This document shows positions 2,484-18,629 of a stretch of 35,376 nucleotides of DNA, piece after piece. Each line of letters begins with the position of its first letter. The first letter of the stretch is position 1. Under the pieces are notes generated by a model that saw nothing but the letters and a program-made list of their open reading frames with translations, was not told the DNA's origin and did not search any database. The DNA lies in the NCBI GenBank assembly GCA_018716965.1, contig DVJF01000067.1:1-35376 (forward strand), read 5' to 3'. The position numbers and the translations under genes are program-made. This stretch comes from Candidatus Caccenecus avistercoris. GTDB lineage: Bacteria > Bacillota_I > Bacilli_A > RF39 > UBA660.

Positions 2484-3251
2484 ATGGAGAAAGTAAAAAG
2501 GGTAAAAAAACGCAAACTAAACTGGAAACGTATTTTAATATTGCTATTAATTCTCTATTTAATAGCAATGCTTTTATATACCTTTTTTACTATGCCCATT
2601 AAAAATATTTATATCAAAGGAACTAATCTACTAACCGATAACGATATAATTGAAGTAGCTAATCTAAAAGATTATCCAGCTATCTTTAAAATCAGTAAAT
2701 CAAAATTAAAAAAAGAAATAAGTTCGTTAGAGTTAGTAGAAGATGTAGATATTAAAAAAACAATAACGGGTAAATTAACGATTACTATTACCGAAGCAAG
2801 GCCATTATTTTTTAATCGAACGACTAATAAAGTAGTTTTAAGTAATAATAAAGAAGTAGAGAATAATAACTATTTAGGCATACCTACTTTAATCAATCGT
2901 GTTCCAACTGATATCTTAAGTGATTTCATAACAGCTCTAAGTGAAATAGATCACGATATTATTAAAATGATTAACGAAATAGAATATGATCCCAATATTA
3001 GCAATGATATTACCATTGATGAGTATCGTTTCTTACTTAGAATGAACGATTCTAATCACGTCTATGTCAATATCATTAATATGGAACGTTTAAATGATTA
3101 TGAAAGTGTTTTCGCAACCATTGGAGATTTGCGAGGAACCGTTTATTTAGATAGTTACAATGCCGATAATATTATCTTTGAAGCATTTGGCAGCGATACG
3201 GAAGAAGAAACTAATACAGGGGGTGAAATAAAAGATGAAACCGAAAATTAA
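2484..3251 (+). CDS. divIB: Cell division protein DivIB/FtsQ (POTRA domain)
   Basis: Basic N-terminus, single TM, POTRA-like IKNIYIKGTNLLTDNDIIEVANL; downstream of murB. Confidence 0.82.
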   Translation: MEKVKRVKKRKLNWKRILILLLILYLIAMLLYTFFTMPIKNIYIKGTNLLTDNDIIEVANLKDYPAIFKISKSKLKKEISSLELVEDVDIKKTITGKLTITITEARPLFFNRTTNKVVLSNNKEVENNNYLGIPTLINRVPTDILSDFITALSEIDHDIIKMINEIEYDPNISNDITIDEYRFLLRMNDSNHVYVNIINMERLNDYESVFATIGDLRGTVYLDSYNADNIIFEAFGSDTEEETNTGGEIKDETEN

Positions 3252-3834
3252 TTATCAAAAAAAATTAGAAGAATTAGTAAGTACTTTTACTAGTAAGCCT
3301 AAGCTTTTATTACATAGTTGCTGTGGACCATGTTCGACAGAGGTCATTGATTTTCTAAAAGATTATTTTGAAATAACCGTCTTTTATTATAATCCTAATA
3401 TTGAGCCAGTGGAAGAATATCTACATCGCAAAACAGAACAAATAAGATTTTTAAAAGAATACAAGGAAGCTGAGGTAGACTTTTTAGATTGTGATTATGA
3501 TAATTCCTCTTTTAAAGAAATAGCTAAAGGTCTAGAACACGAAAAAGAAGGCGGCGCTAGATGTAATAAATGTTTCTATCTAAGAATGTATGAAACAGCT
3601 AAGAAAGCCAAAGACTTAGGTTTTGCTTATTTTGGAACTACTCTTACAGTAAGTCCTCATAAAAATAGTATGATAATTAACGAAATAGGGGAACATATCA
3701 GTGGGTATTTAAAAATAAGTTATATATACGGTGATTTTAAAAAGAATGATGGTTATAAAAAAAGTATTGAATTTAGTAAAATCTACAATTTATATCGTCA
3801 AGATTATTGTGGATGTTTGTACGGAAAGGAGTAA
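3235..3834 (+). CDS. queH: Epoxyqueuosine reductase QueH (DUF208)
   Basis: LLLHSCCGPCSTEVIDFL...YYNPNIEPVEEYLHRK...CNKCFYLRM...DYCGCLYG cysteine motifs. Confidence 0.92.
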   Translation: MKPKINYQKKLEELVSTFTSKPKLLLHSCCGPCSTEVIDFLKDYFEITVFYYNPNIEPVEEYLHRKTEQIRFLKEYKEAEVDFLDCDYDNSSFKEIAKGLEHEKEGGARCNKCFYLRMYETAKKAKDLGFAYFGTTLTVSPHKNSMIINEIGEHISGYLKISYIYGDFKKNDGYKKSIEFSKIYNLYRQDYCGCLYGKE

Positions 3835-14188: not shown

Positions 14189-14212
14189 GTTTTTTAGAAA
14201 GAGGTGTTTTTT

Positions 14213-15819
14213 ATGGCAAAATATGTATTTGTAACAGGAGGAGTATGTTCGGGACTGGGAAAAGGAATTACAGCATCAAGTATTGCTCTTTTGTTGAAAG
14301 CAAAAGGTTATAAAGTATTTATGCAGAAATTTGATCCTTATATGAATGTGGATCCAGGAACAATGTCTCCCATTCAGCATGGAGAAGTATTTGTAACATT
14401 TGATGGATGTGAAACAGATCTTGATTTAGGTCATTATGAAAGATTTATTGATGAAGAACTAAATTATACATCAAACATAACCAATGGTAAAATTTATTCT
14501 AGTGTTATAGAAAAAGAGCGAGTTGGCGACTTTTTGGGTTCAACCGTCCAGATAGTACCTCATGTTTCTAATGAAATAAAAAATAAAATATATGAGGCAG
14601 CAACCAGTAGTGGGGCTGATATTGTAATTACTGAGATTGGTGGAACAGTTGGTGATATTGAATCCGCTGTAATGATGGAATCTCTTCGTCAATTTAGATT
14701 GGAAAGTGGGCGTGAAAATTCTTTGTTTGTCCATACAACCTTAGTTCCATATTTATTTGGTTCTAATGAACTAAAAACGAAACCAACGCAAAATAGTATT
14801 ATTGAATTACGTAGATTAGGAATACAACCAGATATTATTGTAACCCGTGCTCCGATCGATTTAGGCGAGGCAGTAAAAAAGAAAATATCTTTATTTGGAA
14901 GTATTCCCCCTGAAAATATTATTGAAGCTAAAGATGTTAATAATATTTATCAAATACCAATAAATTTCCATAAACAACATATCGAAGATATCATATTAAA
15001 TCAATTTGGCCTAAAATCTGGAAAAAGTAATTTAGAACATTGGGAGAACTTAATCAAAACAAGCGAATCTTTAAAAGATGAAATAGAAATAGCTTAGTAG
15101 GCAAATATGTCGAATTAGAAGATGCTTATTTGTCTGTTAAAGAAGCCCTAAAAGCAGCTGGATATAAATATCATACCAAAATAAAAATTAAATGGGTAAA
15201 TAGCGAAGAATTAGAAGAGGATAATTGTAACTTAAAAGAAATATTTAAAAACTCTAAAGGAATTATTGTTCCAGGAGGATTTGGCTCACGTGGTATTGAA
15301 GGCATGATTAAGGCTTGTGAATATGCGAGAACAAACAAAATCTCTTATTTAGGTATTTGTCTAGGAATGCAAATTGCTGTCATAGAATTTGCTCGTCATG
15401 TTTGCAAGTTACCAGATGCTTCATCTAGGGAATTTGAAGAATTGTGTGTTAATCCGGTTATTGATTTAATGGCAGATCAAAAAGCCATTATTAATAAAGG
15501 AGGAACCTTAAGACTTGGTAACTATAAATGTAAAATTACTAAGGGAACTCTAGCTTATGAAGACTACAAAACTGAAGAAATACTAGAACGTCATCGTCAT
15601 CGTTATGAATTTAATAATAATTACAAAGAACTACTCGCCAGTAAAGGTATGATTTTCTCAGGAATAAATCCAGAAAGTAATTTAGTAGAAATAATTGAAT
15701 TAAAAGATCATCCTCATTTTATCGCATGTCAATTCCATCCTGAATTTAAAAGTAGACCAACTAGACCTCATCCCTTATTTGATTCTTTTATCAAAGCAAG
15801 TATAGAAAATAAAAAATAA
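14213..15819 (+). pseudogene. pyrG: CTP synthase, interrupted by one -1 frameshift near 15094
   Basis: MAKYVFVTGGVCSGLGKGITASSIALLL synthetase domain; GICLGMQ and CQFHPEF of the glutaminase domain. Frames join as [21 protein letters not shown] if one base is restored. Confidence 0.95.
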
Positions 15820-15894: not shown

Positions 15895-16781
15895 ATGAAT
15901 GATATTGTTTTTAAAAATGAAGAAAAAATTGAAAATTTGATTTATGAAATACGTGGTAAACAAGTAATACTTGATAGTGATTTGGCAAGACTTTATAAAT
16001 GTGCTAATGGAACAAAAACTATTAATTTGGCAGTAAAAGACACATTAATAGATTTCCAGAAAGATTTATGTTTCAATTAACAATGGATGAAGTGAGTAGC
16101 ATTTCAAGGTTTCAACTTGAAACCTTGAAAGGACAAGGCCACAATATTAAATATTTACCATATGCGTTTACTGAGCAAGGTGTAGCTATGCTAGCAACAA
16201 TACTTAGAACTTCCGTGGCTGAAGAAGTAAGTATTAAGATAATGGATGCTTTTGTTGCTATGCGTAAATACATTGGAACTAATTTAATAGAACAAAAATA
16301 TATTAACAAATTAGTATTAGAAGATCATAATAAAATACAAGTTTTAGAAGAATCATTTCAAAAACTTGAAGAAAAAAGAAAAGACAGTGAAATTTATTTT
16401 GACGGTCAAATTTATGATGCTTATTCTAAGGTATTAGATATTTTTAAAAGTGCCAAAAAAAGAGCTAATTATTATTATTCTTATGCCGATAATACACTAC
16501 TTGATATAATAAAAAGATTAAATCTCAAAGTAATCATTATAACTAAACCAAACAATTTATTAACAAAACAAGACTTAGAAAAGTATAACAAACAGTATCA
16601 TAATTTAAATGTAAAATATGATAATACATTTCATGATCGCTATTTTATACTTGATAACAATACTGTGTATCATTGCGGAGCCAGTATTAACCGAATTGGT
16701 TATAAAACATTTTCTGTTACTTTAATTAGTGATTGTGATATATGTAAAACTTTAATGAAGAAAGTAAGTAAAATCACTTAA
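15895..16781 (+). pseudogene. ORF6N-domain protein, interrupted by one -1 frameshift near 16053
   Basis: IRGKQVILDSDLARLYKCANGTKTINLAVKDTLIDF then MFQLTMDE...LPYAFTEQGVAMLATIL; restoring one C gives IDFPERFMFQLT. The C-terminal domain contains FHDRYFILDNNTVYHCGASINRIGYKTFSV. Confidence 0.9.
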
Positions 16782-16838
16782 AATGATAGACAAAACAATG
16801 AATAGACATTATACTATATAAATAGTTTAGGAGGAAAT

Positions 16839-17774
16839 ATGGAAAATATATTATCAAAAATCAACTCAAGTACAAAATATGTTAGCGAAAATTCTAGGTA
16901 TGTAAAAATTAATTATGAAAGACTAAATAAAATAATAGATAAATTAGATATTTCGAAAATAAAGTACTGGTTAGATTCTAATCCTTATGGTTTATTAGAT
17001 TTAAGTTGCGAAGAAATTATTGATTTTTTATTAATTTATCATACAATAGGCGATTATTGCTTTTGGGGAGATCCTAAATGGAAAATAAAAACACAAGACG
17101 GAAAAATAATTGATGGGTCATATGCGATGTTATATTTGTTAATGACGCGATATAAAGAAGAAAAATCATTTGACATGAGTAAAGAAGAATTTAAAGAGTT
17201 TTTAAAAGGAAATGTACAAATTCCTTTACTTGAAGATAGATATCAAAATCTAGTTATAATGAATAACTTTCTAAGAGAAAGAAAAATGTCTTTTTATGAA
17301 TTAATTAAAAATTTTTATAAAGACGAAGAATTAATTGATTTTATCATTTCTAATTTTTCATATTTTAAAGATGAAAGTGAATATAAAGGAAGAACAATAT
17401 ATTTTTATAAAAGAGCCCAACTTTTAGCATCAGATATTCTTCATGTAAGAAAAATATTAGAGCATGTAAAAGTAGATTTTAGTCATTTACCAGGATGTGC
17501 CGATTATAAAATACCTCAAGTAATGAGATGTATGGGCATACTTGAATTTAGTGATGAACTAGCAAATTTGGTAGATAACAAAATAGAATTAAAAGAAGGA
17601 AGCGAAATGGAAGTAGAAATAAGAGCAAATGATTTAGTAGTATTAGATTATATGGCAGAAAAATTAAATGAAAAAATATCAAGAATGGATTTAAATGATT
17701 ATATATGGTTACTTGGTCAAGATAAATCAAAAATGACTAAACCATATCATAGAACATTAACCAAACATTATTAA
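16839..17774 (+). CDS. Queuosine salvage protein, Qng1/DUF2419-like
   Basis: IGDYCFWGDPKWKI...GSYAMLYLLMTRY...LPGCADYKIPQVMRCMGILEFSDELANLVDNKIELKEGSEMEVEIRAND, typical of the DUF2419 family. Confidence 0.82.
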   Translation: MENILSKINSSTKYVSENSRYVKINYERLNKIIDKLDISKIKYWLDSNPYGLLDLSCEEIIDFLLIYHTIGDYCFWGDPKWKIKTQDGKIIDGSYAMLYLLMTRYKEEKSFDMSKEEFKEFLKGNVQIPLLEDRYQNLVIMNNFLRERKMSFYELIKNFYKDEELIDFIISNFSYFKDESEYKGRTIYFYKRAQLLASDILHVRKILEHVKVDFSHLPGCADYKIPQVMRCMGILEFSDELANLVDNKIELKEGSEMEVEIRANDLVVLDYMAEKLNEKISRMDLNDYIWLLGQDKSKMTKPYHRTLTKHY

Positions 17775-18199
17775 TGAAAAAAGTTGTATTTGTTGGCTTA
17801 TCTAATAAAAAAGATAAAGAAGCTTTTGATGAAACTACTAATAGTGGAAAAATTATTAATGAAATAATAAATCAGTTAGATTATGAATGCTTCAAGCTAA
17901 ATCTGGTACCATATGCTCCAACAGATGAATTTGGAAAATTAAGATATCCCACAAAAGAAGAAATAAAAAAATCTTTGAAAAACTTTAAAAAAGAAATAGA
18001 AAAAATAAATCCCGACTGTATTGTGGGATTAGGAAACTTTGTAAATTACGAACTAAGAAAGATAATGGAGTATCAAAATATTTTAATTAGTGAAAAACAC
18101 CCATCTTATATTTGTGTATATAAAAAAGCACACTTAAAACAATACATAACCAATTTAATAGATAAAATTAATAGAAAGATAGGTACTAAAAATGATTAA
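17774..18199 (+). CDS. Uracil-DNA-glycosylase-superfamily-like protein
   Basis: VGLSN.. N-terminal motif, NPDCIVGLGNFVNYELRK, SEKHPSYICVY (HPS motif), about 140 aa; start overlaps the stop of the qng1-like gene. Confidence 0.6.
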   Translation: MKKVVFVGLSNKKDKEAFDETTNSGKIINEIINQLDYECFKLNLVPYAPTDEFGKLRYPTKEEIKKSLKNFKKEIEKINPDCIVGLGNFVNYELRKIMEYQNILISEKHPSYICVYKKAHLKQYITNLIDKINRKIGTKND

Positions 18200-18629
18200 T
18201 CGAATTTTAATGGAACTATATGATGACTATGAAAAAAATAATATAGAAAGTTTAATTGAGTTTGCCCGAAAAACATTTCCCAGCGATGGAACAGAAAAAT
18301 TATTTATAGGCTGTACTTTAATTCTTTTTTCTAGATGTAGTGGCTATAAAGCAAGATATAGCGCTACCAGAGAAGCTTTACTTTCTATAGTTTTATCAGC
18401 CAAAGAAAAAGTAGGAAACGCTAGCTTACTTGCTTTCTACTTAGATAGGGTAAATACAAAAAAAGGTATTAACAAATATTTGAAAGACATTGTGAATGAT
18501 AAGCATATTAATCAATATGCCAATTTAATAATTGAATATTTAGAACAATTTAAACCTGATTTTATAGCAGAAATAAAGCAAAATAAAAACCTAGATAATT
18601 ATTTAAATAGTATAAGAAAAGAAAAATAA
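18192..18629 (+). CDS. Hypothetical protein, third gene of the qng1-like operon
   Basis: ORF overlaps the previous gene by 8 nt; no family recognised. Confidence 0.7.
   Translation: MINRILMELYDDYEKNNIESLIEFARKTFPSDGTEKLFIGCTLILFSRCSGYKARYSATREALLSIVLSAKEKVGNASLLAFYLDRVNTKKGINKYLKDIVNDKHINQYANLIIEYLEQFKPDFIAEIKQNKNLDNYLNSIRKEK

Follow-up and report, generated by a model that had tools for sequence, protein, structure and literature searches.

What does the overlap of three genes on one strand mean, when the first two appear to encode N-glycosidases of different folds? The question is raised by a stretch of 35,376 nucleotides from Candidatus Caccenecus avistercoris (hereafter the window), in which three overlapping genes are read on the plus strand (16839-17774, 17774-18199 and 18192-18629). 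The second gene starts on the last base of the stop codon of the first (TAATG) and overlaps the third by 8 nt. A sequence-only reading of the window had described this coupled arrangement, and its coordinates, the TAATG junction and the 8-nt overlap are all exact. Translation of gene 2 is probably coupled to that of gene 1 in the window. The features of the site are as follows; L086 is a related locus of another genome, described below.

15895..16781, plus strand: gene 0, a frameshifted gene for an ORF6N domain and a C-terminal region (the two halves of ORF6N lie in separate ORFs; PADLOC PDC-S05, 3.5e-61; gene order in L086)
16787..16815, plus strand: promoter-like site in the leader of gene 1, TAGACA, 17 nt, TATACT (10/12 consensus match)
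16829..16834, plus strand: Shine-Dalgarno sequence AGGAGG of gene 1 (sequence)
16839..17774, plus strand: gene 1, Qng1/Q_salvage nucleosidase, 311 aa (PF10343, E 2.7e-37; PDB 7uk3 and 7u07; K191 and D222)
17774..18199, plus strand: gene 2, minimal UDG-fold protein without Fe-S cysteines, 141 aa, motif 1 GLSNKK, motif 2 HPSY (PF03167, E 3.9e-10; alignment of 13 relatives; AlphaFold; Foldseek; profile match to 4zbx, E 6.7e-13)
18192..18629, plus strand: gene 3, all-helical protein, 145 aa (family-restricted homologues; AlphaFold pLDDT 89.9)

The putative promoter falls in a stretch that is missing from L086, and the window holds 31 such matches against 24.7 expected from shuffled sequence, so that they are no commoner than by chance.

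Gene 1 belongs to the Qng1 family (DUF2419, Q_salvage), as had been proposed. Its residues 58-311 align with PF10343 (129.3 bits, cut-off 25), a PDB profile search matches the solved Qng1 structures (7u07, 7uk3 and 7ugk represent the family) with an E of about 1e-28, and the motifs FYKRAQ..SD and ADYK(I/V)PQ are common to gene 1 and solved Qng1. K191 and D222 are invariant in 16 relatives. We take these two residues to be the active-site lysine and aspartate, which would be K199 and D231 of the Sphaerobacter Qng1, matched by counting on the structure alignment. By analogy with the family, the enzyme most likely releases queuine, by cleavage of queuosine-5'-monophosphate or queuosine that tRNA turnover supplies. 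A search of phage and plasmid records with gene 1 gave no phage match.

What differs from the known Qng1 systems is the setting of the window copy, a genome with QueA, QueH and a TGT of preQ1-type motif. The pocket of this TGT reads GGTSVGE, and so keeps the valine of preQ1-using enzymes, whereas queuine-using TGTs read GG[LS][AS]G (PMC11570991). The Chlamydia type of direct queuine salvage combines a TGT of the latter type with the absence of QueA and QueH; the window genome shows the GGTSVGE pocket and both enzymes, so that direct reuse of queuine is not predicted. Among the 49 Qng1-positive genomes of the same bacterial family (291 genomes), QueA is present in 44 and QueH in 45, against backgrounds of 258/291 and 251/291. 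As these are background rates, Qng1 adds to the preQ1-to-Q route without replacing it. The released queuine may be exported, may be waste, or may be returned to preQ1 by a QueL-type lyase, an enzyme which turns queuine back to preQ1 (PMC11130926, PMC11570991). Queuosine salvage in gut bacteria is still poorly mapped on the bacterial side, and the presence of Qng1 in 49 of 291 genomes makes the fate of queuine a testable question. The queH gene that the sequence-only reading had placed at 3235 is real (3235-3834, E 2.1e-64), but it lies 13 kb away and QueH is present in most genomes of the family, so it is background and no part of the three-gene unit.

Gene 2 passes the Pfam UDG cut-off (PF03167, 40.4 bits, cut-off 24.3), which confirms the UDG-superfamily likeness noticed earlier. 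Structure prediction, which had been suggested as a check, found the UDG fold: the AlphaFold model, built from an alignment of 13 relatives, has a mean pLDDT of 92.5, and its best 33 Foldseek matches in the PDB are all UdgX or family-4 UDGs (best E 4.4e-6). The resemblance to family 4 (Tth UDGa 1ui0, TM0511 1vk2, S. tokodaii 4zbx) extends from the fold to single residues. N43 of gene 2 aligns with the uracil-binding N80 of the Thermus enzyme (Tth UDGa), and H109 stands within HPSY, that is in motif 2, which in Tth UDGa holds the catalytic H155. N43 and H109-P110-S111, which includes the motif 2 histidine, are invariant in the 13 aligned sequences.

The differences from family 4 are as clear. 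The Fe-S cluster cysteines are absent from gene 2 and from its short clade in the alignment of 13 relatives, while longer relatives in other genomes of the bacterial family carry them. L9-S10 stand at the position of E41-G42, so that gene 2 lacks the EG/EA doublet of family-4 motif 1, which mutational work has shown to be important (PMC5387724). Gene 2 also stays below the two curated NCBIfam cut-offs for family-4 UDGs (25.6 vs 125.3 bits and 28.6 vs 250 bits). UdgX proteins provide the best Foldseek matches (E 4e-6 to 1e-4), but motif 1 of gene 2 reads GLSNKK where PMC10359453 gives GEQPG for UdgX, the Fe-S cysteines are again lacking, and the UdgX model does not match gene 2. A third group, UDG subfamily B of the same bacterial family (about 225 aa, MNPT motif), belongs to the PF03167 superfamily and, in G218, a genome of the same genus where it lies beside Ham1 and gene 3, holds the slot before gene 3; its motif 1 and its length differ from those of gene 2, and searches with gene 2 do not retrieve it.

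By its sequence and predicted fold, gene 2 is classed as a member of the UDG superfamily and not as a family-4 enzyme. Because family-4 motif 1 is replaced, its substrate need not be uracil. The most likely activity of the protein is to cleave the N-glycosidic bond that holds a damaged or modified base, whether in DNA or in a nucleotide, by means of the conserved H109 and N43. In G052 and G279, Fe-S-type relatives of gene 2 are fused to a 3-methyladenine-DNA-glycosylase domain (fusion loci L036:946-2028 and L037:949-2043; PF03352 confirmed in L036, the domain of L037 assigned by similarity).

Gene 3, which the sequence-only reading had left unrecognised, is just as isolated in the databases: searches of Pfam, NCBIfam, PHROG and PADLOC return no family at a meaningful score, and a profile search returns only coiled-coil-like chance matches. 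The AlphaFold model is all-helical, and a search of the PDB with this fold gives nothing below an E of 1.5. Homologues are restricted to the same bacterial family, where they are present in about 18 of 291 genomes; none was found in phage records or viral contigs. Between the window and L086, dN/dS is 0.19 for gene 2 and 0.09 for gene 3; both are under purifying selection, and so are real genes and not chance reading frames. The changes within the species complex are too few to gauge selection on the window Qng1.

Relatives of gene 2 were sought in 84,980 genomes, with the alignment of its short clade as the query, and were detected at eight loci (L084 to L091); Qng1 is adjacent at two of them only. 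These two, L084 (100% identity) and L085 (97%), have the same gene order as the window. At L086, genes 2 and 3 are 82% and 89% identical to those of the window and their 8-nt overlap is kept, but gene 0 directly precedes gene 2, and about 1.0 kb, consisting of the leader and Qng1, is missing exactly between them. In L090 and L091, gene 2 is preceded by a Nudix gene and overlaps it slightly, and in L087 to L089 it has other neighbours. When the genomes of the eight loci were searched for Qng1, it was found only in those of L084 and L085 and not in the L086 to L091 assemblies; all the searched genomes are incomplete assemblies, which makes such absences provisional. Close relatives of gene 2 occur in about 10 of the 291 genomes of the bacterial family, and none of the other Qng1 loci inspected in this family has gene 2 beside it. 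The gene-2 alignment also retrieves short-clade relatives with 44-45% identity from two viral contigs (L169 and L170), which carry them without Qng1; the sequence of gene 2 alone matches no viral contig, has three weak matches in phage records and matches no plasmid record. The pairing of Qng1 with gene 2 is thus confined to the window, L084 and L085, that is to one species complex, and is not kept across lineages. The neighbourhood search that the sequence-only reading had recommended therefore returned the very outcome which that reading had set against its own proposal for this pair.

Several reading frames are disrupted in these loci. The two-frame split of gene 0 is also present in L085, while the ORF6N gene of L086 is in one frame. 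At 14204-15819 of the window, a gene is split into two ORFs that correspond to a single 538-aa ORF in L084 and L085, which suggests a frameshift or an assembly error; by eye, we take this ORF to resemble CTP synthase. In L085 (5001-5423), gene 2 lacks one base close to its start (GTATTTG has become GTATTG), which removes the frame of the ATG; the deletion is either real or an assembly error.

G218 provides a second view of the site. Its region is syntenic with that of the window, with neighbours that are 68-87% identical and a gene 3 that is 86% identical, but Ham1 and a UDG of subfamily B occupy the position of Qng1 and gene 2, and a further Ham1 follows gene 3. The Qng1 of G218 lies at another location and is only 38-39% identical to that of the window, and in a tree of 38 Qng1 proteins the window sequence falls in a well-supported clade with other genera. 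The simplest and most likely reading is that Qng1 was gained by transfer at this site, the alternative being its loss in L086; the preference for gain rests on one close outgroup at the site (L086) and on the Qng1 tree.

It therefore seems probable to us that the arrangement is a mosaic rather than an operon dedicated to one pathway: a Qng1 cassette would have been gained in front of a pair, genes 2 and 3, that already existed. This older pair would have lain in a part of a small Bacilli genome that is variable. Directly upstream of gene 2, the species complex of the window would then have acquired Qng1 together with its leader, such that the start of gene 2 fell on the Qng1 stop codon, with translational coupling as a probable consequence. 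The function of Qng1 would be independent of genes 2 and 3. Most likely, the arrangement arose by local accident, probably a recent insertion, where the genome is variable. A pathway cannot be deduced from tight overlap in a single genome, as close relatives have the pair without Qng1. As it stands, the arrangement matters little, and the main interest lies in the odd variant of gene 2 and in leads from related genomes, more than in the operon itself.

One such lead would give the company of these genes a meaning: the region may be one of several shuffled islands, in which Qng1, UDG-fold, Ham1, Nudix and similar genes are exchanged since each removes abnormal nucleotides. The order Ham1, UDG subfamily B, gene 3, Ham1 at the same site in G218 fits this idea, as do a Nudix gene 9-11 nt 3' of Qng1 in G265 and G168, a Ham1 gene 66 nt before Qng1 in G012, and the fusions of a UDG with a 3-methyladenine glycosylase among the relatives of gene 2. 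UDG-fold genes (PF03167) were located in the genomes positive for Qng1 or for gene 3. Outside the species of the window, 4 of 48 genomes have such a gene within 3.5 kb of Qng1 (G150, G189, G241 and G012; 0.74 expected), and 4 of 28 have one near gene 3 (G218, G088, G185 and G265; 0.45 expected). The Poisson values are descriptive only: the distance limits were set after the positions had been seen, uniform placement was assumed, and the clustering of accessory genes in hot spots, which inflates such counts, was ignored. The association of gene 3 with UDGs within 3.5 kb weakened as genomes were added: all four cases come from the first 17 other genomes, where it seemed promising, and none from the next 11. 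In G150, a 253-aa protein, Qng1, a 136-aa protein and UDG-B follow each other on the same strand with gaps of -26 to 19 nt; this run is the only operon-like one among the four nearby Qng1-UDG cases, and we take it as no more than a lead. For a general link between Qng1 and UDGs, the statistical support is post hoc and weak. As most loci of Qng1 and gene 3 have no such neighbour, we regard the shuffled islands as unlikely.

A stronger version holds that Qng1, in this bacterial family, joins small shuffled operons of N-glycosidases and nucleotide-sanitising enzymes (the protein X described below, fused to it in three genomes, UDG-B, Nudix and Ham1) which take more than one step to process a modified nucleotide, gene 2 being an Fe-S-free UDG-fold enzyme with a non-uracil substrate and gene 3 its partner. 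We consider this version quite improbable. Were it correct, the UDG-fold enzyme of gene 2 would be very small and would work without the Fe-S cluster that its nearest characterised relatives carry, and the partners of bacterial Qng1 would not be limited to transport and TGT.

The sequence-only reading had inferred from the tight coupling an undescribed pathway for 7-deazapurine/queuosine salvage or modified-base processing, in which Qng1 and the UDG-fold enzyme would act on successive or parallel substrates. Both proteins are indeed of N-glycosidase types, the TAATG junction and the 8-nt overlap are what such a pathway might show, and the arrangement is kept in L084 and L085. Against it, the pairing does not extend beyond one species complex, genes 2 and 3 persist in L086 without Qng1, more distant relatives of gene 2, including those of the two viral contigs, also do without it, and the unit contains no further Q gene. 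The 1-nt deletion in gene 2 of L085, where Qng1 remains open, points the same way unless it is an assembly error. A common pathway for the three genes is thus very unlikely. That genes 2 and 3 have a phage-related or anti-phage function, with Qng1 as a passenger, is the least credible reading and a far-fetched one, for although gene 0 matches the PADLOC candidate PDC-S05 and PHROG anti-repressors in profile searches and two viral contigs carry relatives of gene 2, no PADLOC model matches genes 2 or 3, searches of phages and viral contigs returned no gene 3, and no phage structural genes were seen around the unit.

Apart from the genes at the window site, Qng1 has other neighbours in related genomes. 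Three genomes encode Qng1 with an N-terminal fusion to a protein of about 250 aa, protein X (L132:5191-6882, L141:6180-7865 and L146:6229-7917), which in L126:7748-8509 and L128:6335-7084 is encoded separately just upstream of Qng1, with an overlap of 8-26 nt. The Qng1 proteins associated with X form one supported clade, which includes one Qng1 without X. Protein X does not resemble Qng1. A VAPDTHV motif seen by eye had suggested an HhH-GPD glycosylase, but neither hhalign against E. coli Nth nor Pfam or PDB profiles supported this assignment, and profile searches did not support the resemblance of the 136-aa gene product that follows Qng1 to nucleoside deoxyribosyltransferases.

The genome of L085 has a second Qng1 on another contig (L168), with 52% identity to that of the window. 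At L144:6850-7287, a gene 20 nt before Qng1 encodes an alkyltransferase-like DNA-binding protein that scores below the Pfam cut-off, and at L129:5914-6534 a gene for a Ham1-family protein precedes Qng1 by 66 nt. The Qng1 proteins of one divergent clade (L152, L160 and L161, partly L158 and L163) are about 30-39% identical to that of the window, and their genes run operon-like with those of a FolE2-type GTP cyclohydrolase, a GTP cyclohydrolase II-like protein, a CYTH protein and a thymidylate-kinase-like protein, and in one case with a ComB-like phosphatase. Most Qng1 proteins of this clade read ADYG where that of the window reads ADYK, and a different substrate is possible for them.
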